Assembly (NCBI GenBank): GCA_958446785.1
Contig: CAUCXP010000024.1
Span: 1 to 12,454, forward strand
From: an uncultured Collinsella sp.
GTDB taxonomy: Bacteria > Actinomycetota > Coriobacteriia > Coriobacteriales > Coriobacteriaceae
Direction: 5' to 3'
DNA: 12,454 nt
Numbering within the stretch: position 1 is the stretch's first letter; every line of letters begins with the position of its first letter. Below the pieces are notes generated by a model, which was given only the letters and a program-made list of their open reading frames with translations, had not been told where the DNA came from and searched no databases. The position numbers and the translations under genes were made by a program. This document shows, one piece after another, positions 1 to 12,454 of this stretch.

Positions 1-128
1 GCAATCTGACGTTCAATCGTCGGTCGCGTACCGAAGTACGCTTCCCTCCTCTTTCGCGTCACCTTGCTCGCCTAGGGGCGTTTTCGCTGACGTATGCTCA
101 GTCCGCAACTCAATTCAGCTCTAAGCAA
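1..128. other. Left-edge non-coding stretch with a UUCG hairpin; possible start of a leftward gene
   Basis: No gene can be supported here. A perfect 6-bp stem, GCGTAC/GTACGC at 26-41, has a C(UUCG)G tetraloop when read on the minus strand, an unusually stable RNA fold. A minus-strand frame is open from the stop at 72-74 to the window edge and could begin at the GTG at 62-60 (start MTRKRREAYFGTRP), but it has no convincing ribosome binding site and only about 20 codons are visible. A short plus-strand frame ending at about 123 is also open. I do not recognise the product of either. Confidence 0.3.
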
Positions 129-160
129 AAAGGCCGAAGTCCCGAAGGGTTTCGACCTTT
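129..160 (-). terminator. Intrinsic terminator, possibly bidirectional
   Basis: The stem pairs AAAGG with CCTTT and CGAA with TTCG across one C/A mismatch, and has an inner CCC-gaa-GGG hairpin. Read on the minus strand it ends in CCTTTTTGC, so it suits termination of the NdpA-like gene, whose stop is at 187. On the plus strand it is followed by GTTTTTC, so it could also stop transcription entering from the left. Confidence 0.7.
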
Positions 161-186
161 GTTTTTCTGCAGTGTCCAAGCGCAAC

Positions 187-1191
187 TTATCGATTCTCGA
201 TGCTGCCGATGTTTTTGAGCTCGATGGAGATGAGGCCGTTGGGTTCGTTGACGAACTCGATGTACTCGGAGTTCGAGCCCATCTCGGCCGGAAAGCTGAT
301 CTCGATGCCCGTATCGGTACGAATCTTGTGGTTGCGCACGGCCGCACGCTCGACCTGCTTGCGCTCCACGGGCACACGCTCGGGCACCTTCTCTTCGGTC
401 AGCGCCGCACGCACGCTCTCCTTGATGACCGGCTCGTCCTCAAAGACCTCATCGACGATATCCCAGGGCGGCAGTTCCTCATCGTCCTCAACCTTCTCGG
501 CAACGGCAGCCTTAACCTTAGCGAGCGCTACGGCTGTATTGGCACCGTGCTCCTCGGCGACTTCCTCGACCACGCGCGTCACGGTGTCGATGACCTCCTT
601 GCCCGACACGCCCGTATCGCACTGCAGCAGACCGTCGGGAATGAGCATACGGTCTTCGCCGGCAATCTTGCGCTTCTTGTCCACATAGCCGATCTCCATG
701 GTGCTCGCGCGCACGATGGCATAGCTTGGCACCTTTTGGGAAGGATTCGGCAGAATAGCATAGTGGCGCGCGATGTCGTTGCGTACCTCGCCCTCCTCGC
801 GGCCCACCTCGTGCATAAAGGCCTGTTTGGAGCCCAGCAGCATCACGGCAAACCAGCGGGCATCCTCGTCGTCGTCAAAGTCGGCCACGAGCACATCGGT
901 GGACTCGGCTTTTTCGGCCTTGGTAAGCTCGGAGGAAATGAACTCCGCAATCTGCTGCGACAGGTCTACGAACTCGCGCTCGCCAAAGAAATAGCCCTTG
1001 AGCTCGCCGCCAAACGCAGAGTTCTCGGCAAACGTGGCGCGCTTATTGTCGGCCGAGGTTCGTGCGCGGCGCAGATGCGTGGTCACAAAGTTGCGCACGG
1101 TACGGCTCTCGATATCGAGCTCGCGCTGGCTCATGACGTTGACGGCAGAGTCAAAGTCCAGGATATGCAGAATCGCGTGATTGATTTTCAT
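187..1191 (-). CDS. Nucleoid-associated protein, NdpA/YejK-like
   Basis: Predicted 334-aa protein of the 37-kDa nucleoid-associated family (NdpA/YejK, PF04245), whose members bind the nucleoid; the exact role is poorly known. The start (MKINHAILHILD) and the end (TDTGIEISFPAEM, then EYIEFVNEPNGLISIELKNI) match the conserved ends of the family as I know it, and the length is normal. The middle, roughly residues 205-260, is rich in Glu and Lys and looks like a charged linker. I chose the ATG at 1191 over one three codons upstream (1200), because the AACGGA at 1201-1206 would touch the upstream ATG but lies 9 nt from the downstream one. It appears monocistronic, with its own -10-like TATACT upstream and a terminator downstream. 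Confidence 0.85.
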   Translation of the reverse strand: MKINHAILHILDFDSAVNVMSQRELDIESRTVRNFVTTHLRRARTSADNKRATFAENSAFGGELKGYFFGEREFVDLSQQIAEFISSELTKAEKAESTDVLVADFDDDEDARWFAVMLLGSKQAFMHEVGREEGEVRNDIARHYAILPNPSQKVPSYAIVRASTMEIGYVDKKRKIAGEDRMLIPDGLLQCDTGVSGKEVIDTVTRVVEEVAEEHGANTAVALAKVKAAVAEKVEDDEELPPWDIVDEVFEDEPVIKESVRAALTEEKVPERVPVERKQVERAAVRNHKIRTDTGIEISFPAEMGSNSEYIEFVNEPNGLISIELKNIGSIENR

Positions 1192-1229
1192 ATACGGCAT
1201 TCCGTTCTAGATCGATTTCGGCACGAACC

Positions 1230-1235
1230 AGTATA
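1230..1235 (-). promoter_or_regulatory. Candidate -10 element for the NdpA-like gene
   Basis: TATACT on the minus strand, 38 nt before the chosen ATG at 1191. At 17-nt spacing the -35 position reads GCCTGG, which is not consensus-like, so only the -10 box is supported. Confidence 0.3.
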
Positions 1236-1266
1236 GCGGTCGAGCCCGCCCCAGGCGCATCGAAGC

Positions 1267-1299
1267 TTGGTGCATCGGGGACAGGTTGCTTTGCACCAA
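1267..1299 (-). repeat. REP-like palindrome, copy 1
   Basis: Arms TTGGTGCA (1267-1274) and TGCACCAA (1292-1299) pair perfectly around a 17-nt centre. Read on the minus strand, it aligns with the palindrome at 2494-2524: 26 of 31 positions are identical by hand count, including the centre AACCTG-N-CCCC. The two copies are inverted and flank the Mbeg1-like gene. There is no T-tract, so it is not an obvious intrinsic terminator. It looks like a dispersed intergenic repeat. Confidence 0.6.
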
Positions 1300-1302
1300 T
1301 GG

Positions 1303-2463
1303 TTAGCGCAGGAGCTCGGACTGCCAAGCCTCGAGCTGTTCTGCCAAACTCTTGCCGGCAGCGGGCATGTCGATCTGGGGTCGTTTGGGCAGCAGTGCGC
1401 ATTTAAGGATTGCCACGATGGTCTGCGAGACAAAGCGTCGCGTATCCTCGTCAAAGCCTTGCGCAGCCTGGAGCATCACGGGCAGGCTCTCGCGCAGATT
1501 CCCGGCGATATCCGCAAACCGCTCAGCACCCGTAGCCTCAAACACGGAGAACAACGCATCTACAAAACGCTCGCGCTCGCTAGGTGACACTGCAAGCAGC
1601 ATCTCGCGAATGGAGCCATCAACGTATCGAGCACCGGCGGACAGGCGCTCACAGTACACGAAGTCGCGATCATCAACCACCCAGCTAAAGGGATTATGCT
1701 GCAGCAGGCTGAACTCGGTGCTCTCAACGATGGCGTAGTCCTCCTGTGTCTCGAACATCATGCCAAAGATCGACGACCGAGGTAGCGTCTTGTCGATTCG
1801 ACCGGAAAGATCGGCAAAGGCGTTGCCGTTCAGAAACTCCTCGACAAAGCCCGGACCATCATGGGAATACACCCGTTCGATTCGCTCACGGGCGACATCG
1901 GAGCACATCGCCGCACCGTACACCGCAAGGTTTCCACCCTTGGAATGACCTCCGCACAAAAGCGGCCCGTCAATCGCATCCGCCGCCTCGTCCACATAGC
2001 GCGCCGCAGATTCCTGGGAGGGCACGGGACACCGGAACGCCATGTTGAAGTCCTCTTTCCAGCCCACAATCGTGCTGTCGGTCCCCCGGAAGGAAAGATA
2101 GCTAAACCCCGCCGGAAACCGGAACGCCATGGCTGCAAACTGCTCTGTCGCCACCACATCGCTCACGGCACGATAGCCGCAAACGTGCACGCCACGGTAG
2201 CGAGGGCTTGCTGCCACGGCCTCCAACAGGGCACGGCTCCCCTCCGGATCCCACAGGTCGCCAATCATGTCTTGGTAGCACTCGGCGCGCAGCAGCTCGC
2301 GTACGTCTAGGCCCTGCCAGTTCGTCAGCTCCGCCATATCACCCGGCAAACGCAAATAGGACAACCACGCAAAGACCAGGCTATCCACCGCGCAGAACGG
2401 CCGTTCCTCAAACGGATCAAACGCCGTCTGGGCATAGGTCAAAAAATTAGGCGAATCCGACAT
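1303..2463 (-). CDS. Mbeg1-like (DUF2974) alpha/beta-hydrolase
   Basis: Predicted 386-aa soluble protein of the Mbeg1-like/DUF2974 family (PF11187), a lipase-like alpha/beta-hydrolase group of unproven substrate common in Gram-positive gut bacteria. The N terminus reads FLTYAQTAFDPFEERPFCAVDSLV, split here as FLTYAQTAF and then DPFEERPFCAVDSLV. SFRGTD is at 124-129. The nucleophile elbow is GHSKGG at 172-177, with Ser174 the likely catalytic serine. SHDGPGF (200-206) and QHNPFSW (255-261) are conserved family segments that could supply the acid and histidine. The start at 2463 follows GGGAGG closely. An upstream in-frame extension to 2667 crosses the ldh terminator and is not credible. REP-like palindromes lie on both sides. 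No signal peptide is seen. Confidence 0.85.
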   Translation of the reverse strand: MSDSPNFLTYAQTAFDPFEERPFCAVDSLVFAWLSYLRLPGDMAELTNWQGLDVRELLRAECYQDMIGDLWDPEGSRALLEAVAASPRYRGVHVCGYRAVSDVVATEQFAAMAFRFPAGFSYLSFRGTDSTIVGWKEDFNMAFRCPVPSQESAARYVDEAADAIDGPLLCGGHSKGGNLAVYGAAMCSDVARERIERVYSHDGPGFVEEFLNGNAFADLSGRIDKTLPRSSIFGMMFETQEDYAIVESTEFSLLQHNPFSWVVDDRDFVYCERLSAGARYVDGSIREMLLAVSPSERERFVDALFSVFEATGAERFADIAGNLRESLPVMLQAAQGFDEDTRRFVSQTIVAILKCALLPKRPQIDMPAAGKSLAEQLEAWQSELLR

Positions 2464-2493
2464 GGCCCTCCCATCAACTATGGTGCATTGGGG

Positions 2494-2524
2494 TGGTGCA
2501 AAGTAACCTGACCCCCTCGCACCA
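2494..2524 (+). repeat. REP-like palindrome, copy 2
   Basis: Arms TGGTGC (2494-2499) and GCACCA (2519-2524) enclose AAAGTAACCTGACCCCCTC. It matches the minus-strand reading of copy 1 at 1267-1299 with five differences. A further half-copy, GGTGCATTGGGG, sits directly before it at 2482-2493. It lies between the Mbeg1-like start codon and the ldh terminator. Confidence 0.6.
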
Positions 2525-2559
2525 AAAAGGCGCCCGGACCGTGTGGCCCGGACGCCTTT
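2521..2559 (-). terminator. Intrinsic terminator of ldh
   Basis: A 15-position stem (2526-2540 with 2545-2559, two mismatches) closes on a GTGT loop. On the minus strand it ends in CCTTTTTGG, a usable U-tract, 32 nt past the ldh stop codon. It is G+C-rich (core GGCG/CGCC and CCGG/CCGG) and should be efficient. Confidence 0.85.
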
Positions 2560-2590
2560 CATTGTAGCCTGCTGCCCAAAAGAGCTTGAT

Positions 2591-3541
2591 TTAGCAGGAG
2601 AAGTCGACGCTGTCGATGATGTCCTTGAGGGCCTTTGCGGAGGCGGTGAGCTCATGCTGCTCGTCATCGTTCAGCGGCACGGGGACGCGGCAGACGACGC
2701 CGTCGCGGCCGACGACGGTCGGCATGGAGATGGCAAGATCGGACAGGCCATACTCGCCCACCATGAGCGAGGAAACGGGCAGAACGGTCTGCTCGTCACG
2801 CATAACAGCGGTGCAGATGCGCTTGACGGCCATGGCGACGCCGTAGTAGGTGGCGTGCTTCTTCTCGATGATGGTGTAGGCGGAGTTCTTGACGTCCTCG
2901 GCGATGCGCTTCTCGGCAGCCTCATGCTCCAGATGACCGTGAAGCTCGCAGAAGGTGTTCAGCGGAACGCCAGCAACCTGAGCGCTGGACCAAGCGACAA
3001 ACTCGGAGTCGCCGTGCTCGCCCATGACATAGGCCTGGACATCGCGCGGGTCGACCTCGACGTGGGCGCCGAGCATCTGCTGCAGACGGCCGGTGTCGAG
3101 CACGGTGCCGGAACCGATGACGTGACCCTCGGGCAGGCCGGACATCTTGATGGCGGCGTAGGTCAGAACATCGACTGGGTTGGAGACGATGAGCAGAATG
3201 CCGTCGAAGCCGGACTTCTTAATCTCGGGGATAATGGACTTAAAGATGTTGACGTTCTTGTTGACCAGGTCCAGGCGGGTCTCACCGGGCTTCTGGGCAG
3301 CACCGGCGGTGACGACGATCATGGCGGCGTCGGCGACATCGGAATAATCGCCGGCGTAGATCTTCATCGGCTCGGCAAACGTCATGCCGTGCGCGATATC
3401 CAGAGCCTCACCCTCGGCACGGTTCTTGTCCACGTCGATGAGGACCATCTCGGAGAACAGACCACTCTGCATCAGTGCGAACGCCGAAGACGAACCGACG
3501 AAACCGCAGCCGACAATAGCGACCTTCTTCTCGTTAACCAT
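2591..3541 (-). CDS. ldh: L-lactate dehydrogenase
   Basis: Predicted 316-aa NAD-dependent L-lactate dehydrogenase (pyruvate + NADH to lactate + NAD+), a cytosolic enzyme that recycles NADH in fermentation. The Rossmann loop GCGFVG is at 11-16, and Asp36 (LIDVDKN) favours NAD over NADP. The active-site loop AAQKPGETRLDLVNKN carries Gln83, the residue that selects pyruvate; malate dehydrogenases have Arg there. Further conserved residues are Arg89, Asn121 (SNPVDVLTY), Asp149 and Arg152 (LDTGR) and the catalytic His176 in GEHGDSE. The length is typical. The ATG at 3541 has GGGAG six bases upstream; the longer frame to 3619 would run through the leader hairpin and is rejected. It has its own terminator and is probably monocistronic. 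Confidence 0.95.
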   Translation of the reverse strand: MVNEKKVAIVGCGFVGSSSAFALMQSGLFSEMVLIDVDKNRAEGEALDIAHGMTFAEPMKIYAGDYSDVADAAMIVVTAGAAQKPGETRLDLVNKNVNIFKSIIPEIKKSGFDGILLIVSNPVDVLTYAAIKMSGLPEGHVIGSGTVLDTGRLQQMLGAHVEVDPRDVQAYVMGEHGDSEFVAWSSAQVAGVPLNTFCELHGHLEHEAAEKRIAEDVKNSAYTIIEKKHATYYGVAMAVKRICTAVMRDEQTVLPVSSLMVGEYGLSDLAISMPTVVGRDGVVCRVPVPLNDDEQHELTASAKALKDIIDSVDFSC

Positions 3542-3567
3542 TAGAAACTCCCATCTCTCTCCACAAA

Positions 3568-3598
3568 CAAGCCGCCCGGGAACGACCCGAGCGGCTTG
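3568..3598 (-). promoter_or_regulatory. Leader hairpin upstream of ldh
   Basis: CAAGCCGC/GCGGCTTG plus CGGG/CCCG, with one C/A mismatch and an AACGA loop (plus-strand reading). On the minus strand it ends in GGCTTGTTTGTGG, a weak U-tract, and lies 27 nt ahead of the ldh ATG. It could be a weak terminator for the aminotransferase gene or a structured 5' leader of ldh. The sequence does not decide between them. Confidence 0.5.
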
Positions 3599-3685
3599 CC
3601 GTAATCCCAATACATCCAATCGGGACTTTGATTATGCTCCTATTCGCAGCCAAAAATCGACCGTTTACCGAAATTGTTTGCAGAA

Positions 3686-3706
3686 TTCGTAAAATAACTG
3701 TACGAA
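3686..3706. promoter_or_regulatory. Inverted repeat between the aminotransferase and ldh genes
   Basis: TTCGTA (3686-3691) and TACGAA (3701-3706), nine bases apart, form a dyad in the A+T-rich upstream region of ldh. A -10-like CATAAT lies downstream on the minus strand (3631-3636). It could be a regulator site. It does not match the Rex consensus TTGTGAA-N4-TTCACAA. Confidence 0.25.
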
Positions 3707-3742
3707 ATCGGTTTCGAGCTATTGACGAGCCGAAATACCTTT

Positions 3743-4906
3743 CTAATACAGGCCCGCCTCGCGAATGGCCTCGACAGCCAAAGCAATCTGATCGGGCGGC
3801 AGGACCAGCGCCATGCGCACGTGCCCCTCGCCCGAAGGACCAAAGCTCGCGCCCGGCGTCACCACAACGCCGGCCTTCTCCATGAGCTCCTCGCAAAACG
3901 CCATGGAATCGGTGCGACCACCGGGAAGCTTGGCCCACACAAACATAGAGCCATGCGCGTTGGGACGCTCCCAGCCCAGGCCCTCAAGACCGTCGCACAG
4001 GGCATCGCGGCGCTCCTGGTACTTCAGACGCTGCGCCTCGACCTCATCGCGCGGACCGTTCAGGCAGGCGATAGCAGCCTTCTGGATCGGGAAGAACATG
4101 CCAAAGTCGATCTGGCCGCGCAGCTTGGCAAAGGCAGAGACCACGTCCTCGCGGCCGACCAAAAAGCCGATACGCGCACCGGTGACGTTAAACGACTTGG
4201 AGAGCGAGAAGAACTCCACGCCCACCTCAAGCGCACCGGGATACTGCAAGAAGCTGCCGCCCGGTTCGCCGTCGAACACGATGTCGGAGTACGCGTTGTC
4301 ATGGACGATGAGCAGGTCGTGCTCGCGGGCGAAAGCGATAATCTCCTCGTAGACCTCGGGGGTACCCACCGAGCCCACCGGGTTGGCGGGCAACGACACG
4401 ATCATGTACTTGGCACGATCGGCCACCTCGGGATCGATGCCCGCCACATAGGGCAGGTAATTATGCTCGGCAACCAACGGATAGTACTCGAGCTTGGCAT
4501 CGGCGATCTTGGCGCCCGCCTCAAAGACCGGGTAGCACGGATCGGGAACCAAAATGGTGTCGCCCGGATCGAGCAGGGCAAGGCCCAAATGGCCCACGCC
4601 CTCCTGCGTGCCGTTGCACGACTGCACCATGGACGGTGTGATGCCCGAAACGCCAAAGCGACGCTCATAGTAATCGCACACGGCTTGCTTGAGTTCGGGC
4701 AGGTCGCGCAGGGCATACTTCCACATCTCGGGATCTTGGGCTGCTTGCGTGAGCGCCTCAACCACGTGGTCGTACGGCTTAAAGTCGGGCGTGCCCACGC
4801 TCATGTTGTGAATGGTCTTGCCCTGAGCCTTCAGCGCGAGAAGCTTGTTGTTGAGCGAGGCGAAGACCTCCGCGCCAAAGCGGTCGAGACGCTGCGATGC
4901 CTGCAT
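3743..4906 (-). CDS. Class I/II (fold-type I) PLP-dependent aminotransferase
   Basis: Predicted 387-aa cytosolic aminotransferase of the aspartate aminotransferase superfamily. Pyridoxal phosphate-binding elements are in order: SLPANPVG with Asn175, HDNAYSD with Asp203 and Tyr206, and SLSKSFNVTGARIGF with Lys237 as the Schiff-base lysine. Arg364 in GHVRMALV should hold the substrate carboxylate. The overall pattern (SVGTPDFKP near the start, HDNAYSDIVFDG, TPGASFGPSGEGHVR) resembles the LL-diaminopimelate (DapL-like) and AlaC-type branch, but the amino donor cannot be fixed from sequence alone. The ATG at 4906 follows AGGTGG at a good distance; the in-frame extension to 4969 crosses a terminator-like hairpin. 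It lies downstream of nadE on the same strand, separated by that hairpin. Confidence 0.9.
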   Translation of the reverse strand: MQASQRLDRFGAEVFASLNNKLLALKAQGKTIHNMSVGTPDFKPYDHVVEALTQAAQDPEMWKYALRDLPELKQAVCDYYERRFGVSGITPSMVQSCNGTQEGVGHLGLALLDPGDTILVPDPCYPVFEAGAKIADAKLEYYPLVAEHNYLPYVAGIDPEVADRAKYMIVSLPANPVGSVGTPEVYEEIIAFAREHDLLIVHDNAYSDIVFDGEPGGSFLQYPGALEVGVEFFSLSKSFNVTGARIGFLVGREDVVSAFAKLRGQIDFGMFFPIQKAAIACLNGPRDEVEAQRLKYQERRDALCDGLEGLGWERPNAHGSMFVWAKLPGGRTDSMAFCEELMEKAGVVVTPGASFGPSGEGHVRMALVLPPDQIALAVEAIREAGLY

Positions 4907-4925
4907 GGTGCCACCTTTCGATATG

Positions 4926-4956
4926 AAAAACGCGGCGCTCCGACAAGAGCGCCGCG
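4926..4956 (-). terminator. Intrinsic terminator or attenuator between nadE and the aminotransferase gene
   Basis: A perfect 10-bp G+C-rich stem, CGCGGCGCTC (4931-4940) with GAGCGCCGCG (4947-4956), has a 6-nt loop. On the minus strand it is followed by TTTTT. It fits as the nadE terminator, but its U-tract ends only about 20 nt before the aminotransferase ATG. Any aminotransferase transcript with a leader must therefore pass through it, which suggests read-through or attenuation. Confidence 0.8.
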
Positions 4957-4967
4957 CGATACGGGCC

Positions 4968-4996
4968 ATCAGATTGCAAAAGTGTAACGCTTACAA
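4968..4996 (-). promoter_or_regulatory. Candidate promoter and operator dyad for the aminotransferase gene
   Basis: The minus strand shows TTGTAA (4991-4996), 17 nt, then TCTGAT (4968-4973), each matching 4 of 6 consensus bases. The -35-like box overlaps an exact 13-bp dyad, TGTAACGCTTACA (4983-4995; arms TGTAA/TTACA), a shape typical of dimeric repressor sites. It lies just after the nadE stop codon. The regulator is unknown. Confidence 0.3.
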
Positions 4997-5024
4997 CCCC
5001 CGTACTGGTTCAATTTAGCCAACC

Positions 5025-7025
5025 TTAGTCAATCGGATTGAGCGCATCGATCTGCGCAAGCCACAGACGCGAGCTGGCGTCACTCGGCATACGCCAATCG
5101 CCACGCGGGCTGAGCGTCACCGAGCCCACCTTGGGACCGTCGGGCAGGCAGCTTCGCTTAAACTGCTGGGCAAAGAAGCGGCGGTAGAACGTACGCAGCC
5201 ACGTGTGGACGGTCTTGGCGTCGTAGACGCCCTCGAAGCTCTTGAGCGCCATGCGGTAGATCTTGCCCGGCTCAAAGCCAAAACGTAGCAGGTAGTAGAG
5301 GAAGTAGTCGTGCAGCTCGTACGGGCCCACCAAATCCTCAGTCTTCTGCGCAATCTCGCCGTCGCCCGTGGGCGGCAGAAGCTCGGGAGATACCGGCGTA
5401 TCGAGGATATCGAGCAAGACCTCGGCAATACGCCCGCCAAAGACATCAGCCGCATAGCGCACCAGATGGCGCACAAGCGTCTTGGGCACGCTCGCGTTGA
5501 CGGCGTACATGCTCATGTGGTCGCCGTTATAGGTAGCCCAGCCGAGCGCCAGCTCCGACAGATCGCCCGTACCGATGACAAAACCGCCGGCCTGGTTGGC
5601 TAGGTCCATCAGAATCTGCGTACGCTCGCGCGCCTGGCTGTTCTCGTAGGTCACGTCCTGTACGGCCGGATCGTGCTCGATATCCTTAAAGTGCTGCTCC
5701 ACGGCCGCATGAATCGAAACCTCGCGGAAACTCACACCCAGGTCGCGAGCAAGCGACTCGGCATTGGACTTGGTGCGGTGCGTCGTGCCAAAGCCGGGCA
5801 TGGACACGGCCGTGATACCGGTGCGCAGCAGCCCCAGTGCATCGAAGGCGCGCACGGTCACAAGCAGTGCTAGCGTGGAGTCCAGGCCGCCCGAAAGACC
5901 GATGACAGCCGCCTTGGTACCCGTATGGGCAAGGCGGGTCTTGAGGCCGGCGGTCTGCAGGTCGAGGATGGTCTCGCAGCGCTCGGCCAGATCACCGTGG
6001 TCGGCCGGCACAAAAGGCGCGCGAGGGAAAACGCGGTCGATATCAAGCGCATCGCGAAGAACAGGATCCTTCGCAAGCACGCCCTCAAACGAAAACTCAA
6101 CGGTCGTGGCCTCCGGCGCATCGTCCGCGCGCGTCCACGTCGTCGAGCGACGGCGCTCGGCAACCAGGCGGTCAAGATCAACGTCGGCGATGGCCATATC
6201 GCAGGTAAGCAGTTTGGTCGCGGCGAGCTTGGATCCGTTTTCGTAGACGAGGTTCTCGCCCGCAAAGACCATATCGGTCGTGGACTCGCCCTCGCTCGCG
6301 TCCGCGTAGGCATAGGCGCAGTACAGGCGCGCGCTCTGGTTGGAGATAAGGCTGCGGCGGTAATCTGCCTTACCGATAATCTCGTCCGAGGCCGACGGGT
6401 TGAGAATCACCGTCGCACCGGCAAGCGCCATCTCGGTCGAAGGGGGTGCCGGCACCCACAGGTCCTCGCACACCTCGACACCCAGCACCATATCCTCGGC
6501 GCCTTCATCACAGCAGCGGTAGACAAGCCCCGAACCCAGCGGAACCGGACCCTGACCGGCAAACTCGACCCACACAGGATCTGCGGGCGCCGGAGCAAAC
6601 CAGCGGCACTCGTAGAACTCGCCATAGTTGGGCAGATACTTCTTGGCCGTGAGGCCCAAAAGCTCGCCCGCGCAGCACACGGCGGCGCAGTTGTAGATAT
6701 TCTCGGCAACCGCAACGGGAAGACCGATGGTAAAGACAATCGACAGCTCACGAGTCTCGTCGAGGATATGCACCAGAGCAGCCTCACAGGCATGCAGCAG
6801 CGTGCGGTTATGGAACAGATCAGCCGCGGTATAGCCGGTCAGGTTAAGCTCGGGCAACACCAACGCGCGAACGCCACGCCCGGCAGCATCGCGAACAGCC
6901 GCCAGCGCAACCTCGACATTGCCCTCGACATCGGCGACGCGAATCTGCGGCGATGCCGCCGCAACCCGCAGAAAGCCGTCGTTCTTATTAGCCGAAACGC
7001 AGCATTGCCTTGTTGATCTGGACAC
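5025..7025 (-). CDS. nadE: Glutamine-dependent NAD+ synthetase
   Basis: Predicted 666-aa two-domain enzyme for the last step of NAD+ synthesis: deamido-NAD+ + ATP + glutamine to NAD+. The N-terminal nitrilase-fold glutaminase domain (about 18-300) shows the catalytic triad Glu59 (LPELNLTGY), Lys128 (AKKYLPNYGEFYE) and Cys186 (GVEVCEDLW). The C-terminal synthetase domain (about 345-645) has the ATP-pyrophosphatase P-loop SGGLDST at 378-384 and the conserved GTGDLSELALGW. The length matches the glutaminase-fused type seen in Mycobacterium rather than the short NH3-dependent enzyme. The start is uncertain: no suitable ATG exists, and the GTG at 7025 lies 7 nt after GGGG, whereas homology begins only around residue 17. 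A terminator-like hairpin follows the gene. Confidence 0.93.
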   Translation of the reverse strand: MSRSTRQCCVSANKNDGFLRVAAASPQIRVADVEGNVEVALAAVRDAAGRGVRALVLPELNLTGYTAADLFHNRTLLHACEAALVHILDETRELSIVFTIGLPVAVAENIYNCAAVCCAGELLGLTAKKYLPNYGEFYECRWFAPAPADPVWVEFAGQGPVPLGSGLVYRCCDEGAEDMVLGVEVCEDLWVPAPPSTEMALAGATVILNPSASDEIIGKADYRRSLISNQSARLYCAYAYADASEGESTTDMVFAGENLVYENGSKLAATKLLTCDMAIADVDLDRLVAERRRSTTWTRADDAPEATTVEFSFEGVLAKDPVLRDALDIDRVFPRAPFVPADHGDLAERCETILDLQTAGLKTRLAHTGTKAAVIGLSGGLDSTLALLVTVRAFDALGLLRTGITAVSMPGFGTTHRTKSNAESLARDLGVSFREVSIHAAVEQHFKDIEHDPAVQDVTYENSQARERTQILMDLANQAGGFVIGTGDLSELALGWATYNGDHMSMYAVNASVPKTLVRHLVRYAADVFGGRIAEVLLDILDTPVSPELLPPTGDGEIAQKTEDLVGPYELHDYFLYYLLRFGFEPGKIYRMALKSFEGVYDAKTVHTWLRTFYRRFFAQQFKRSCLPDGPKVGSVTLSPRGDWRMPSDASSRLWLAQIDALNPID

Positions 7026-7150
7026 TGGAGGCCCCTTCTACCCTGAGATTCAGTCTAACGGACGTTCACATATCTCTAACTAGCCAAAGCAACCTCCCAG
7101 TTTACTGAGACGCTAACCTGTGCTAAGAGCATGTATTCCAAAAAAATCTT

Positions 7151-7189
7151 TAATTAAAAAAGGAGAAATCGATAATCGACTTCTCCTTT
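7151..7189 (-). terminator. Intrinsic terminator of the radical SAM/peptide operon
   Basis: Stem arms 7159-7172 and 7176-7189 (AAAGGAGAA/TTCTCCTTT and TCGA/TCGA, one A/C mismatch) close on a 3-nt loop. On the minus strand the stem runs into TTTTTTAATTAAAG, a strong U-tract. It begins 25 nt after the stop of the 36-codon peptide gene and marks that gene as the last of the operon. Confidence 0.9.
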
Positions 7190-7213
7190 AAGCGAGGCAA
7201 GAAAATTCCGAAA

Positions 7214-7324
7214 CTAATGGCAGAATTTATCCATGTAGTCCTCAAAGTCGAACACTTCTACCACGACGCCCTCTTCCTGAGACTCTTTCAGTTGCTCCAA
7301 GAGATCTTTGTTAATAACGTCCAT
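7214..7324 (-). CDS. 36-aa peptide, candidate RiPP precursor
   Basis: A 36-codon gene too short for routine calling. It has an excellent start: AGGAGG, seven bases, then ATG at 7324, with the ribosome binding site immediately after the radical SAM stop codon (13-nt gap). The N-terminal half (MDVINKDLLEQLKESQEEG) is an acidic, probably helical leader-like segment ending at Gly19. The second half (VVVEVFDFEDYMDKFCH) holds the aromatic residues Phe25, Phe27, Tyr30 and Phe34, then the only Cys (Cys35) and a terminal His36. It is strongly acidic with no signal peptide or membrane segment. The position after a radical SAM enzyme and before a terminator argues for a modified-peptide precursor. I do not recognise the core as a named RiPP class. 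It could instead be an unrelated small protein. Confidence 0.75.
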   Translation of the reverse strand: MDVINKDLLEQLKESQEEGVVVEVFDFEDYMDKFCH

Positions 7325-7337
7325 GCAGAAACCTCCT

Positions 7338-9224
7338 CTATCTAATCAGTTGTAGTATATCTGCTTTCATGCAATTATCAACCAACTTGTTTAATTGCTC
7401 CTCGCTTGTCGATAGTCCCTCTTTTTTCAAAATGTCGCGCACCTCGTTCTTAGTAATCGGCTTTTCAAACAACGAAAGCAAAGCGAACGAAAAATCATTA
7501 ACCGCACACAGCCTATGGGTGGCACAACTCAGCAGTACTCTTAACCCCTCTTTTGAGCGTCCGACTTCTTTAACAAACGAACTTTTAACCAATTGAAAAC
7601 CATTATCGTGCATTACATAATCGGCATCGATATTTGTATTCAGCAATCCATAATGCAACAGTTCTTCTATCGCCCTTGTCAGCTCGAGGTCGCCCTGATC
7701 AAGAATAAGAGAAATGCTACAATCGGCCTCCAATAAACGGGCCAACTTATGGTATACCAACTGGGAAACAGCATAGACATGATGGTATTCAGAATTATAG
7801 AAGTAGGCAAATGGCTCAACGAGCACGACAGAGGTCTTGGAATCCAGCCAGATTCGATCGGCTGGATTTAGACTAGTTAGCCGTCGCTTTACTTTGGTCA
7901 AATGTCCCTTATACCTGACAGCGTGAATAGAATCTAGGATCCAGGTCACCTCTGAAATATGAAGCCGCTGGGGCAAGTCAATTGTGTCGCTACCGTTTAT
8001 GACCTCTTGCATATAAAAATCAATATGATGCTCATCAGATAAGGATTTTGCTTCATTTAAAGTTAAACCAGTGCCTGAAACATAATCTACTTCGAGGCGC
8101 AAATCCTCATATTGGGACTGCGGCATTACAGAGACACCATACTTATCGGGATGATTCCAAACATCCGACCCCATAACGAGACCAAAATTCGTAAATCCTC
8201 TCGTGGAATATGGAACACCACATACCTGTTTTGAATAATTCAAAACATTCTCTGTATAAGCTAAGGTGTTCAGAGCCTCTTCTTTAGTTTCGGTCGGAAA
8301 GCCAATCATAAAAAATAGATGAACAGGAATACCCGCATTGAGACAATCATGGATATTGCGATCAATCCAATCAACTCTCGTGTTCTTCTTCATTAGATCA
8401 AGAACTCTTTGGTTGTATGACTCGAGGCCAAACTGAATCTGCCTACATCCACTTTGGTATATCTTGTTAAAAACGTCTGTACTTAGGGTTGGAGAGAACC
8501 TCGTTTCTCCATGCCAGAAAAACGTTTTTCCCGATGCGTTTATTTCATCCGCGAGTTGCTCCATTCTTTTGCCTTCGAATGTTTCATCCACAAAAGAGAA
8601 AACTCTCGTGCCGTATTTTTCATTTAACCGACACATTATTTCAAATACTCTCGATATAGGCATCTTTCGGTAACAACCACCGGTAGCACCGGGAATGGTG
8701 CAGAAGGCGCAATGATTAAAACACTGCCTAGAGGAATAAACCGGCAATATTAGCTCAGGCATGAAGTATTTAGAAAGGGCGAAGCCATCGAAATCGGGAA
8801 CTGTATCGTTGATAAATGTTTGCTCAATCCGATGGTTTTTATATATCTTTCCACCTTTAGCATGGCAAAGGTTTGGAACACAGTCGAGATTGTCATCACC
8901 AGAGTCAAGAGCCTCAAGAAGACGTGCAAGCGGCTCTTCGCCGTCATACATCATTATCGAATCAATGTATTCAAAAAAGGGATGCCATTCTTTCATGCAG
9001 TCATCTGCTAAACGAGTAATGTAATTGCCGCCCAATGAGACGTGTTTAACAGATGGACATTCTTCTTTAATCAGTTTCGCTAACGTAACTGCAGAAATCA
9101 ATTGGAAACAGCCGCTCACCGAAATCCCAATAAACTCGATTTTTTCCCTCTGAATACGCTTAAGAAAGGCAGTTTCATAGAAGGAAATAAACGGATTATG
9201 CAAGGTATCCGCAAGCGATTTCAT
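7338..9224 (-). CDS. B12-binding-type radical SAM protein, C-terminal part (frameshifted gene)
   Basis: The 628 codons from the first ATG carry the catalytic part of a cobalamin-binding-type radical SAM enzyme. The [4Fe-4S]-binding CxxxCxxC is CFNHCAFC at 168-175 (numbering from the ATG at 9224). It is preceded by an alpha/beta region with IGISVSGCFQ, SLGGNY and YDGEEPLARLLEAL, typical of B12-rSAM proteins. The barrel continues through GLESYNQRVLDLM and FFMIGFPTET. The C-terminal 150 residues contain two stretches (about 483-530 and 575-628) that look like small winged-helix modules, possibly PqqD/RRE-like for peptide recognition. The ATG at 9224 has no ribosome binding site, and the frame is open upstream to 9320, joining the protein at 9302-9658 after a -1 shift. 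Likely role: modification of the peptide encoded next. Rejoined, the protein would be about 773 aa. Confidence 0.88.
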   Translation of the reverse strand: MKSLADTLHNPFISFYETAFLKRIQREKIEFIGISVSGCFQLISAVTLAKLIKEECPSVKHVSLGGNYITRLADDCMKEWHPFFEYIDSIMMYDGEEPLARLLEALDSGDDNLDCVPNLCHAKGGKIYKNHRIEQTFINDTVPDFDGFALSKYFMPELILPVYSSRQCFNHCAFCTIPGATGGCYRKMPISRVFEIMCRLNEKYGTRVFSFVDETFEGKRMEQLADEINASGKTFFWHGETRFSPTLSTDVFNKIYQSGCRQIQFGLESYNQRVLDLMKKNTRVDWIDRNIHDCLNAGIPVHLFFMIGFPTETKEEALNTLAYTENVLNYSKQVCGVPYSTRGFTNFGLVMGSDVWNHPDKYGVSVMPQSQYEDLRLEVDYVSGTGLTLNEAKSLSDEHHIDFYMQEVINGSDTIDLPQRLHISEVTWILDSIHAVRYKGHLTKVKRRLTSLNPADRIWLDSKTSVVLVEPFAYFYNSEYHHVYAVSQLVYHKLARLLEADCSISLILDQGDLELTRAIEELLHYGLLNTNIDADYVMHDNGFQLVKSSFVKEVGRSKEGLRVLLSCATHRLCAVNDFSFALLSLFEKPITKNEVRDILKKEGLSTSEEQLNKLVDNCMKADILQLIR

Positions 9225-9301
9225 TATTTCTGGTGTCGAATAATAATCATAGGGCAGATCTATGGAGTTGAACGTGTATTTAACTCCATATGAGACGTGA
9301 T

Positions 9302-9323
9302 TTATGATATAGAGTGCATTTCA
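9302..9323 (-). other. Frameshift splitting the radical SAM gene
   Basis: Frame 1 (from 9658) ends at TAA 9304-9302; the downstream frame has its last stop at TGA 9323-9321. The change of frame must therefore fall between these points. The only homopolymer there is AAA (9321-9319). Adding one A would read ENIFENALYIINHVSYG without a break. Slippage on the adjacent T5 run cannot repair it, because an extra T creates TGA in frame. Confidence 0.8.
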
Positions 9324-9658
9324 AAAATGTTTTCAGCATATTGTCTTTCTTTTAGATTAAAGTATCTCTTCGATCTGAAAATATCTTTTGCCTCGTCAAC
9401 ATTAAGTGCCGACTTTTGTATCAACTCGATTGTTAATTGGACATTCGAACTAAACGAATCCTTTGATTCCCGATACCTTTTACAGCACTCTTCGACATGT
9501 CTAAAAGATAGGAGGTCATCGTAAAATTCCACGTTTAAGTCAACAATGTCAACTTTGTATTGTTCAACCTCTTGAAGATATGACTTCAAAACAGGCAAGG
9601 CAAGATACGGCCCCACTGGACTCCATCCTGGGGGAAATACTAAAAGCGTTTTAGGCAT
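9302..9658 (-). CDS. B12-binding-type radical SAM protein, N-terminal fragment
   Basis: A 118-aa open frame that reads as the start of a B12-binding radical SAM enzyme, not as a separate protein. MPKTLLVFPPGWSPVGPYLA, then LPVLKSYLQE and VDIVDLNVEFYDDLLS, are the usual opening beta-alpha-beta and Pro-rich loop of that family. The last five residues (MHSIS) are a product of the frameshift; the natural continuation, NALYIINHVSYG, is in the -1 frame. The start ATG lies 7 nt after the MFS stop codon. No good Shine-Dalgarno is seen (only AAAGATG), so it is probably translationally coupled to the exporter gene. Confidence 0.8.
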   Translation of the reverse strand: MPKTLLVFPPGWSPVGPYLALPVLKSYLQEVEQYKVDIVDLNVEFYDDLLSFRHVEECCKRYRESKDSFSSNVQLTIELIQKSALNVDEAKDIFRSKRYFNLKERQYAENIFEMHSIS

Positions 9659-9665
9659 ATCAACG

Positions 9666-10850
9666 TCACATCTTTCGCAAATAATTCAATTGAAACACAA
9701 CTACCATCATAATTGAAAATACACCAAGTCCTGTAACGAGAATTGAGAACATCGCGATGCTCGTGAACAGCGAAACAAGAAGTGTTGAAATAACAACAGC
9801 AACCGATTGCAAAGACTCCCTAATTGAAAACAGGCTTATCGATTCAGATCCGTCTCTCGCCAAATCCTGCAGCGATGTTATGAGAAGCACATCTTGAATG
9901 GCGTTTCCGGCACCGACGATAAAAAGGAAAATAAACGATATCCCAGACGCATAGCGATAGCCAAACGCCAGATACGCACCGAGCGCAAGATACGTCACAA
10001 AACAATATGATTTAACGCAATCGGAACCACTGATTAAACGACCATATATTGTATTTCCGAACAACAGTCCGATTGTAAGACTACTCTGAAGGAATCCGTA
10101 TTGTATCGATGACGAGTCAAATTGCAATTGCGCTATAGCTGGCAAAAGAGAATTCAGAGAGCCGAATGCCACGCCACTAGAAATATCGATTAATAGGAAA
10201 CCAATTGCCAAGTGCTTCGCGCTAAGATCACTAAATGCAGTCCTGTTTTTTTCATTTTTGCTTATGCCCTCTTTATCATTAACCTCGATAACCGACGGAA
10301 CATCTCGCAGCAACCAGAACGACGCGGCAAAAGAAAGCGCGTCTAATGCAAGAACAGCCTCCGCCCCAAATTGAGCGACAACAAAACCGCCGGCAACTGG
10401 CCCCAGAACCATCATCAAATTCTGCAGGAACCCAAACGAATTATTAATTACGTCGCGATTGATACTATTCGTATTGGCTCTTAACAACGAGTAAAAGCAG
10501 GGCATTTCTACCGTTCGGCAAAGCGATACCGCGCACGTAATAGCAAACATACTCCATTTACTATCAACAAAAATATAGCAAACGAATAATCCCGCGCGAA
10601 TTAAGTCTGCCAATCTCATGGCCTGCAGTGTCCCGATACCCATCTTCTGAGGCAGCTGCGCGAGCGCAACTGAAAACAGAGAGGGGGCAAATCTGCAGCA
10701 GACCATCAAAGCAGTTGCAGAAACATCGTGAGTTACCTCGTAAATTAGCATTGGCAAAGCAATATTCGCACACCAATTGCCTATTTCGCTTATCCCTCTA
10801 GCAATATATAGGACCCGAACCGGACGGCTAGCTCTCAATACCGTGAACAT
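9666..10850 (-). CDS. MFS transporter, likely exporter
   Basis: Predicted 394-aa inner-membrane protein of the major facilitator superfamily, closest in feel to the MFS_3/drug and macrolide exporter group. About ten to twelve hydrophobic segments are spread over the whole length, with a polar cytoplasmic loop at about 184-212. The motif NNSFGFLQNLMMVLGPVAGG (136-155), with its GP...GG in a membrane helix, is characteristic of that group. The ATG at 10850 lies 9 nt after GAGG and overlaps the preceding DUF2087 gene by 23 nt, so the two are probably translationally coupled. By context it should export the cluster's peptide product or give self-protection. It has no peptidase domain, and no leader peptidase is visible in the window. 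Confidence 0.88.
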   Translation of the reverse strand: MFTVLRASRPVRVLYIARGISEIGNWCANIALPMLIYEVTHDVSATALMVCCRFAPSLFSVALAQLPQKMGIGTLQAMRLADLIRAGLFVCYIFVDSKWSMFAITCAVSLCRTVEMPCFYSLLRANTNSINRDVINNSFGFLQNLMMVLGPVAGGFVVAQFGAEAVLALDALSFAASFWLLRDVPSVIEVNDKEGISKNEKNRTAFSDLSAKHLAIGFLLIDISSGVAFGSLNSLLPAIAQLQFDSSSIQYGFLQSSLTIGLLFGNTIYGRLISGSDCVKSYCFVTYLALGAYLAFGYRYASGISFIFLFIVGAGNAIQDVLLITSLQDLARDGSESISLFSIRESLQSVAVVISTLLVSLFTSIAMFSILVTGLGVFSIMMVVVFQLNYLRKM

Positions 10851-11109
10851 CACGATTAACCTCGTATTTCAGGCCTCGTTCATCCCTTAATAGGAATCCA
10901 TAATCAACCAAGTACCGCCTCAACACGGCATAATCAGGATAGAGCTGTGACAGCACACGATTAACCTGAAGCTCCGTATAACTTGTATTTAATTCAAAGA
11001 AAGAGACGGCCCATAGCAGCATGATTCTTTTATAGCTTTCCTTTTTTGGAATTGAAACCAGCTCGCCATTCTTGAGAAATCGTTTTTTAAAGTCTATTAG
11101 CTCATCCAT
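10828..11109 (-). CDS. DUF2087 domain protein, possible transcriptional regulator
   Basis: Predicted 93-aa protein that is essentially one DUF2087 domain (PF09860). The signature runs along its length: FLKNGELVSIPKKESYKRIM (11-30), then YTELQVNRVLSQLYPDYAVL (44-63) and RRYLVDYGFLLRDERG (64-79). The domain is a small winged-helix-like fold, often attached to ArsR-type regulators and also found alone; DNA binding is likely but unproven. It is the first gene of the A+T-rich operon, with GGAGG six bases before the ATG. Its 3' end overlaps the exporter start by 23 nt. The promoter region ahead of it carries direct repeats, so autoregulation is a reasonable guess. Confidence 0.8.
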   Translation of the reverse strand: MDELIDFKKRFLKNGELVSIPKKESYKRIMLLWAVSFFELNTSYTELQVNRVLSQLYPDYAVLRRYLVDYGFLLRDERGLKYEVNRDVHGIES

Positions 11110-11124
11110 TCACATCCTCCATTT

Positions 11125-11165
11125 CATACGCATCTAATACTAAAAATGCATACGCTTTAGGTCAT
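11125..11165 (-). promoter_or_regulatory. Candidate promoter of the DUF2087/exporter/radical SAM/peptide operon
   Basis: On the minus strand ATGACC (11160-11165), 17 nt, then TAGTAT (11137-11142); each box matches 4 of 6 consensus bases. Transcription would start about 20 nt before the DUF2087 ATG. The -10 box is bracketed by a 7-bp direct repeat CATACGC (11125-11131 and 11149-11155), 24 nt apart, a possible operator. Confidence 0.4.
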
Positions 11166-11183
11166 CGCATTCAGCTTCTTTAT

Positions 11184-11203
11184 TCGAACTAAACTCGAAC
11201 TAA
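11184..11203. repeat. Tandem 9-bp direct repeat upstream of the operon promoter
   Basis: TCGAACTAA occurs at 11184-11192 and again at 11195-11203, an 11-nt period, about one helical turn, so both copies face the same side of the DNA. It sits just upstream of the candidate -35 box, where an activator would bind, and just after the stop codon of the 72-aa gene. Confidence 0.5.
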
Positions 11204-11209
11204 TCTAAA

Positions 11210-11428
11210 TTATTTGCTCAGACACTCTTCGAAAGCTCGTTTTTCACTCTGAGTAAAATGCCCTTCCCAGTCAGTCCACGAACAGGAAGGCAACTCACAA
11301 CGAGCGGAGTCGAAACCCTCTGCCGTCGGTCGTTCAAAATGCACGATAACCTTTTCGATATCGCCATCTGTAATCAGGTCAGAATGAATGACCTCGGTTC
11401 CATCTTCGAATGTCATATACGGGTACAT
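11210..11428 (-). CDS. Small conserved-looking hypothetical protein
   Basis: Predicted 72-aa soluble protein of unknown function. MYPYMTFEDGTEVIHSDLI followed by EKVIVHFERPTAEGFDSARCELPS resembles a small protein I have seen in many gut Firmicutes and Actinobacteria, always as hypothetical; this is memory, not a search. Those relatives tend, as I recall, to run a little further at the C terminus, so this copy may be slightly shortened. The ATG at 11428 follows GAGGTGG at eight bases. An in-frame extension to 11629 overlaps the divergent plus-strand gene and its ribosome binding site and is not credible. The gene lies 100 nt upstream of the DUF2087 gene on the same strand, but the candidate promoter between them suggests it is separate. 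Confidence 0.7.
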   Translation of the reverse strand: MYPYMTFEDGTEVIHSDLITDGDIEKVIVHFERPTAEGFDSARCELPSCSWTDWEGHFTQSEKRAFEECLSK

Positions 11429-11602
11429 CACGTAAACCACCTCGCAAACATAAATCCAGTTTAGCATCAAGCTATCGCACCAAAGACAGCAAGCCCCCTT
11501 GATGAGTTGATGGTATCTGTTAAATGTCACGTACGATTCACATCTGGTGGGTACCCTGATGGCTACACGAAACGAAGCAGATTTACACCGGGAGGACCCC
11601 GT

Positions 11603-12454
11603 ATGACAACCAAGTACACCGACGCGCATTCCATCGGACAGACCATGGCCATCGCGCCCAAAAAGGGCCTGTTCGACGACATTTCCATTCCCCAGATCAT
11701 CGCCGGCGCCGCAGCTGCCGCCACGAGCGTGGCGCTTGCTTCAAAGATCGGCATTGCCGGCTCGGTGATTGGTGCCGCTGTGAGCTCAGTCATCACTGTT
11801 GTGTCCTCGCAGGTCTATCGCCACTTTATCTCCGCCAGCGCCGAAGCAATCAAGGGCACGCATGCCGCTGTCGACTACCCTACCGGCGCCTACGAGCCCG
11901 TTGAGCCCAATGTCGAGGAGCACCTAGGTGGCGCCGCAACCACGCAGGAGATGCGCCAGGTTGCGGGACGCGCGACCACGGCGCGCGTCGCTCCCAACAG
12001 CCTGCGCGCCAAGGCGGCGGCTGAGCGCAGCCAGACGCAAAAGAAGGTCATCGTCTTCTCGATCGCTATCGCCATCGTCGCGGTCATCGCCTGCGCCGGC
12101 GCCATCCTTATCACCACTGCCGGTGAGGGTCTGGGCGAGCGTCCCGAGCCAATCCTGTCGTCGCGCACGACCGAGAGCGATGCAAATGGCAACACCCAGT
12201 CGCAGGATCAGCAAGCACAGACGGACGATACGCAAGACAGTTCTACCTCTGCCAATTCGTCCTCGAACACCCAAAACCAATCGCAGGGCACCGATTCCTC
12301 TGCGAACAACAGCGGCACGCAATCCGGCACGACTGACTCAAGCCAAACGACTGACGGCTCTCAACCGAGCACGGGCGGCCAGACGAGCGACACCACGTCG
12401 GGAACGGGCACAGCAGGCAGCAGCAACAGCAATTCGAGTGACACCACATTGGGC
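11603..12454 (+). CDS. Membrane protein with Ser/Thr/Gln/Asn-rich tail (partial)
   Basis: The only plus-strand gene; 284 codons are visible and it runs off the right edge without a stop. GGAGG lies seven bases before the ATG. The N terminus (about 22-69) has FDDISIPQIIAGAAAAATSV followed by a long Ala/Gly/Val-rich hydrophobic hairpin. A cytoplasmic-looking Arg/Lys/Ala-rich stretch (about 115-148) precedes a clear membrane helix at 149-172 (VIVFSIAIAIVAVIACAGAI). From about 185 the chain is low complexity, almost all Ser, Thr, Gln, Asn, Gly and Asp, as in wall-spanning linkers. This suggests an anchored protein with an extracellular domain beyond the window. Codon use is G+C-rich, like the left-hand housekeeping genes. 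Function not recognised. Confidence 0.85.
   Translation, partial: MTTKYTDAHSIGQTMAIAPKKGLFDDISIPQIIAGAAAAATSVALASKIGIAGSVIGAAVSSVITVVSSQVYRHFISASAEAIKGTHAAVDYPTGAYEPVEPNVEEHLGGAATTQEMRQVAGRATTARVAPNSLRAKAAAERSQTQKKVIVFSIAIAIVAVIACAGAILITTAGEGLGERPEPILSSRTTESDANGNTQSQDQQAQTDDTQDSSTSANSSSNTQNQSQGTDSSANNSGTQSGTTDSSQTTDGSQPSTGGQTSDTTSGTGTAGSSNSNSSDTTLG

Follow-up and report, generated by a model that had tools for sequence, protein, structure and literature searches.

Does a 36-codon frame directly behind a B12-type radical S-adenosylmethionine (SAM) gene of an uncultured Collinsella sp. encode the precursor of a ribosomally synthesized and post-translationally modified peptide (RiPP)? The frame lies on contig CAUCXP010000024.1 (assembly GCA_958446785.1), of which positions 1 to 12,454, the whole stretch analysed, are called the window here. 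A preliminary description had proposed one minus-strand operon of a DUF2087 protein, a major facilitator superfamily (MFS) exporter, a radical SAM protein and a short peptide, with the peptide as the substrate. That account was right in part; it overlooked RiPP recognition element (RRE)-like domains in the enzyme, a presence/absence island and recurrent damage to the enzyme. We consider it highly probable that the cluster is a B12-type radical SAM RiPP system, in which the peptide is the precursor, its leader is held by RRE-like domains and its tail is modified; the enzyme gene is frameshifted in this strain.

Conservation of the peptide gene and its operon

The peptide gene (MDVINKDLLEQLKESQEEGVVVEVFDFEDYMDKFCH; 7214..7324, minus strand) was found in all 12 Collinsella loci that have this stretch (L001-L005, L008, L009, L011, L012 and L014-L016, with some strains entering twice, from two collections), and a single amino-acid change was seen across them. 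Compared with the carriers, three distinct codon changes were counted, two silent and one not. A homologue was found in G045, a genome of another family of the same order. There, a homologous radical SAM gene has its own 39-codon peptide gene 21 bases behind its stop, and a purine-rich stretch precedes the ATG of this peptide gene. When the tails were aligned (window VEVFDFEDYMDKFCH, G045 IEVLDHEDYLVKYCN), 8 of 15 residues were identical. Among the 402 stop-to-stop frames of at least 20 amino acids in the 15-kb G045 locus, the top match of the window's peptide was the frame just behind the radical SAM gene (score 54; next 39), and none of 20,000 shuffles reached this score (highest 52). The same locus encodes a DUF2087 protein, 44% identical to that of the window over 85 aligned positions, and an MFS protein (30% identical, E 1e-37). 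The gene order differs from that of the window, and the peptide gene is directly downstream of the radical SAM gene in both.

The preliminary description had asked whether the peptide gene always accompanies a homologue of the enzyme. Within the order it does so in both lineages in which the enzyme was found (9 genomes out of 395). A short precursor gene kept beside a modifying enzyme is a feature of RiPP clusters, and here it was found in two lineages only. The search of the peptide against plasmids gave no match. Judged from this conservation, the 36-codon frame is a real gene, and the peptide is very probably the substrate of the radical SAM enzyme. Its proposed role as a RiPP precursor is supported as likely.

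A protein-database search with both frames returned 35 peptides, one identical to that of G045 and 34 of the Collinsella type. In the 19 full-length 36-residue forms, that of the window included, 7 positions were variable in the first 19 residues and 13 in the last 17, and rare variants alter Y30, K33 or C35. The length was altered in 16 of the 35 records, many of them with a broken tail; some of these may be contig ends or errors. In the G045 relative, F25, F27 and F34 are replaced, and Y30 and C35 are kept. The core had been called rich in Phe and Tyr; given these replacements, E-V-x-D-x-E-D-Y-x-x-K-(F/Y)-C is a better description of the tail than Phe-rich. The proposed end of the leader at about Gly19 is plausible but hypothetical.

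The four genes share the minus strand, and the operon that had been read from the sequence was confirmed with its ribosome-binding site and its strong terminator. The first gene encodes the DUF2087 protein, a likely cluster regulator (10828..11109; PF09860, 4.6e-20, 72 bits, cut-off 22.4), and overlaps the gene of the MFS transporter, a likely exporter (9666..10853; PF07690, 7.2e-16, 58.5 bits, cut-off 33.4). The B12-type radical SAM gene follows after 7 bases. It had been taken as a single gene with the motif CFNHCAFC; the motif and the domain stand, but the gene is not one frame here. A frameshift splits it into an N-terminal fragment (9302..9658, from the frame and alignment to relatives) and a main frame with CFNHCAFC (7338..9224; PF04055, 3e-17, 63.7 bits, cut-off 29.5). 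From its stop to the ATG of the peptide gene there are 13 bases, and the Shine-Dalgarno sequence AGGAGG (7332..7337, minus strand), read in the sequence, ends 7 bases before this ATG. An intrinsic terminator (7159..7189, minus strand) has 14 pairs and then a T run; its stretch folds at -27.7 kcal/mol (z -5.5), and none of 200 shuffles was equally stable. Neither Rfam families nor tRNAs were found in the window. The suggestion that the four genes form one unit gained support from the other bacterial family, in which the same four families occur in another order, with the peptide again behind the radical SAM gene.

Domains of the enzyme and the proposed mechanism

Two features of B12-type radical SAM enzymes were found, the CxxxCxxC motif, present as CFNHCAFC, and the radical SAM domain. 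The main frame was 99% identical to frames in relatives. The B12-binding family PF02310 scored below its cut-off in the window, and 12 of 28 homologues matched it at E up to 0.1. The predicted fold of residues 1-555 was OxsB-like, and MiaB-type folds matched too. The C-terminal part was modelled apart, because a fold search with the long model hardly covered it. By predicted fold it holds two RRE-like domains, one at 7629..7865 and one at the C-terminus (7341..7604), both on the minus strand; a leader-binding domain of this kind is a feature of RiPP clusters. The fold is PqqD-like, and the PqqD family matched in some homologues of the enzyme. Between the window and G045, identity was 17% in the RRE-like part and 51% in the catalytic part; in the peptide, divergence of the leader half parallels the former, and the tail is kept like the latter. 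RRE domains bind precursor peptides (RRE-Finder, PMC7470986).

The enzyme scored below the cut-off of every NCBIfam family. The best match was TIGR03975 (rSAM_ocin_1), with 112.8 bits for the window and 114.1 for the whole copy of the Collinsella genome G024 (cut-off 281.85). This family of RiPP maturation radical SAM C-methyltransferases is matched across the B12-type and radical SAM domains, but the window's enzyme lies far below the cut-off and adds the two RRE-like C-terminal domains. ThcOx is another enzyme with RRE-like modules; it is a cyanobactin oxidase with an unrelated catalytic domain. The ApyD/PbsB-type B12-dependent enzymes of ortho-Tyr and biphenomycin-like RiPPs target aromatic residues in a short precursor peptide (PMC12257519), and the window cluster shares with them a B12-type radical SAM enzyme and a short precursor. 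However, the window's peptide has no FHAFRF-like motif, and the ApyD model NF050148 scored 85.8 bits, far below its cut-off of 750. The MNIO (DUF692) partner reported for biphenomycin-like clusters (PMC12257519) was absent from the island genes scanned with Pfam. That the peptide matched no named RiPP class, as the preliminary description had remarked, was supported. In the open-licence literature no paper on Collinsella aerofaciens together with RiPPs and radical SAM enzymes was found, and among the matches listed for the wider open-licence literature no title concerned this cluster. The available portion of PMC12806405, on transferred gut clusters, does not name Collinsella. From its sequence, the cluster appears to be a B12-type radical SAM RiPP variant with a putative peptide product.

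We infer a substrate relation, chemistry, export, regulation and a function of the product, as follows. The leader of the peptide (about residues 1-19) would be held by the two C-terminal RRE-like domains. The enzyme would then alter at least one residue in the C-terminal half, likeliest in E-V-x-D-x-E-D-Y-x-x-K-(F/Y)-C, near the Glu, Asp, Tyr and Cys residues that are conserved there. Our first guess is C-methylation and our second a Tyr/Cys cross-link; C-methylation (PMC5682303) and aryl cross-linking (PMC12257519) are known reactions of B12-type radical SAM enzymes on RiPPs. The Pfam scan of island genes showed no peptidase family for leader removal, and cleavage by a protease encoded elsewhere is possible. 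The MFS protein would export the product, and the DUF2087 protein would regulate the operon. The latter role is suggested by the bottromycin cluster, also a RiPP cluster with a DUF2087-domain protein, in which BtmL modulates the precursor gene (PMC7113386). BtmL differs in that it is a 20.5-kDa protein in which DUF2087 forms the C-terminal domain, and the bottromycin chemistry differs from that of the window cluster. With the enzyme gene frameshifted, the peptide is probably made and left unmodified in this strain.

Distribution and the presence/absence island

The window comes from a Collinsella-like genome; the closest of the genomes compared shares 75% of its sampled words. All eight named loci with the enzyme were Collinsella. 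Genome searches found it in 8 of the 43 Collinsella genomes, 9 of 395 of the order, 9 of 296 sampled from the class and 3 of 396 sampled from the phylum, and in 1 of 140 genomes of the G045 family and 1 of 60 relatives of G045. Outside the order, homologues occur in Lachnospiraceae, Lactococcus, Desulfosporosinus and others, with many in Bacillota (best 120 of 251, proteins only). In the Lactococcus lactis homologue P0047 (478 member sequences) the motif reads ACVNKSTFC; compared with ACVNKCTFC in the close homologue P0036, one cluster-binding Cys is changed in this representative. Three radical SAM queries of plasmid records gave distant relatives only, and in no case was as much as 80% of the protein of the window covered. 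A Rhizobium record (L045) covered 83% of the homologue P0112 at 27% identity, with no small gene annotated directly behind its radical SAM gene in an incomplete gene table. A Niallia plasmid relative (L018) has a 56-codon gene behind the radical SAM gene, and in an Acetoanaerobium record from the plasmid search the stretch behind it is unannotated. No radical SAM relatives were found in phages and viral contigs.

In Collinsella the whole cluster lies in a 4.5-kb presence/absence island (6978..11498, from the junctions in non-carriers) beside nadE. In 12 of the 13 non-carrier loci inspected, position ~6977 is joined to ~11499 over ~127 bp of other DNA, which includes their own nadE start. The thirteenth, G011, retains a piece near 11286-11522. 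Across seven carriers, in bins of 250 bases, the island was 95-100% identical and the flanks 81-99%, lowest beyond 11750. This higher identity suggests a recent spread of the island.

Other features were noted in the island and beside it. The island swaps the start of nadE (window 6960-7025); non-carriers begin MNLHLSQSDGFLRV, and the N-terminus in the window differs. Upstream of the DUF2087 gene lies a 72-codon frame (beginning MYPYMTFEDGTEVIH; 11210-11428, minus strand) with no Pfam match, and G011 retains a portion of this region but lacks the remainder of the cluster. In the window, the plus-strand gene that starts MTTKYTDA (11603-11760) has 54 bases (18 in-frame codons) fewer than in carrier L009 and non-carrier L078.

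Damage to the enzyme gene and rival explanations

The frameshift in the window lies near 9320 and was found in none of 11 aligned sequences from relatives (seven strains, four of them fetched twice). Lesions of the radical SAM gene were found in 8 of 9 Collinsella copies (eight genomes and the window), and only that of G024 was whole. The lesions are frameshifts (window and G007), nonsense changes (G006 and G031), loss of the start codon (G001) and insertion of mobile-type DNA (G004, G010 and G026). The insertion in G010 is near residue 200, and those in G004 and G026 remove just the final ~22-25 residues out of 773. The DUF2087 gene is open in all nine copies and the MFS gene in eight (shifted in G004). 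The peptide gene is open in the seven copies in which it was seen, and also on contigs L014 and L016, of the strains behind G004 and G026. For the radical SAM main frame, 22 distinct codon changes were silent and 9 not (per-site ratio 0.11), which suggests past constraint, probably until recently. The corresponding counts were 14 and 14 for MFS (0.31) and 2 and 2 for DUF2087 (0.28). Given the recurrent damage to the enzyme, the cluster as a unit is probably idle in this strain, and probably silent.

The mobile-type DNA that interrupts the gene was seen at positions 1-1418 of L011, which we take by eye to be IS21-like, at the ends of L010 and L013, and at the starts of L014-L016. The insertions other than that of L011 have inverted-repeat-like ends and almost coincide in position within the last RRE-like domain. 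Six public records of 1053 residues (P0001-P0006) start as MFS and end as radical SAM protein. In the three aligned (P0001, P0004 and P0006), MFS to residue ~358 is joined to radical SAM from ~63, a further broken form.

The damage can be explained in another way that is compatible with a RiPP system. A working system may have spread recently in human-gut Collinsella, with the active enzyme now selected against, strains that lose it gaining as cheaters or by escaping what the product costs. The concentration of lesions in the enzyme gene beside open DUF2087 and MFS genes, its constraint until recently, and additional broken forms in public protein records such as the MFS-radical SAM fusion all argue for this. 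However, no other gene of the cluster is as long a target, and if lesions fall by length alone, eight of nine in the radical SAM gene has P 0.067; this is not significant, so preferential loss is suggestive only, and the cluster may simply be unneeded and decaying. Most source assemblies are drafts that can hold errors, the clipped copies of G004 and G026 may stay active, and the largest public cluster, P0007 (12,784 member sequences), may include intact copies. The altered length of so many peptide records also weighs against selection on the enzyme. We regard such selection as a possibility to be held tentatively.

The role of the peptide itself could also be read differently. PqqA is a carrier for pyrroloquinoline quinone, and a similar role for the peptide, carrying some small cofactor or metabolite, would fit the PqqD-like fold, the PqqD matches in some homologues and the conserved Glu, Tyr and Cys of the tail. 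We consider this very improbable, as the island genes scanned include no cofactor-using enzyme, and the MFS gene and the likely regulator suggest that a product is exported. An independent small protein, a regulator or signal rather than a substrate, would agree with the short frame, its own ribosome site and its staying open where the enzyme is broken. However, the peptide gene is directly behind the radical SAM gene in two families despite shuffled gene orders, the halves of the peptide track the domains of the enzyme, and RRE-like domains of the kind known to bind precursor peptides (PMC7470986) are present, which makes an independent peptide unlikely.

With the RiPP precursor reading, a B12-type radical SAM lineage below the NCBIfam cut-offs, from a common human-gut genus, gains an enzyme-substrate pair that can be tested, and an apparently whole enzyme gene is available from a relative. 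More speculatively, the cluster could represent a new RiPP class, defined by its tail motif and a B12-type radical SAM enzyme with tandem C-terminal RREs, that makes a potent gut product; strains would repeatedly knock out the enzyme and keep the precursor, exporter and regulator, as for a social or toxic peptide in turnover. If true, a single biosynthetic gene damaged repeatedly and independently would give a rare view of ongoing selection on a gut peptide.

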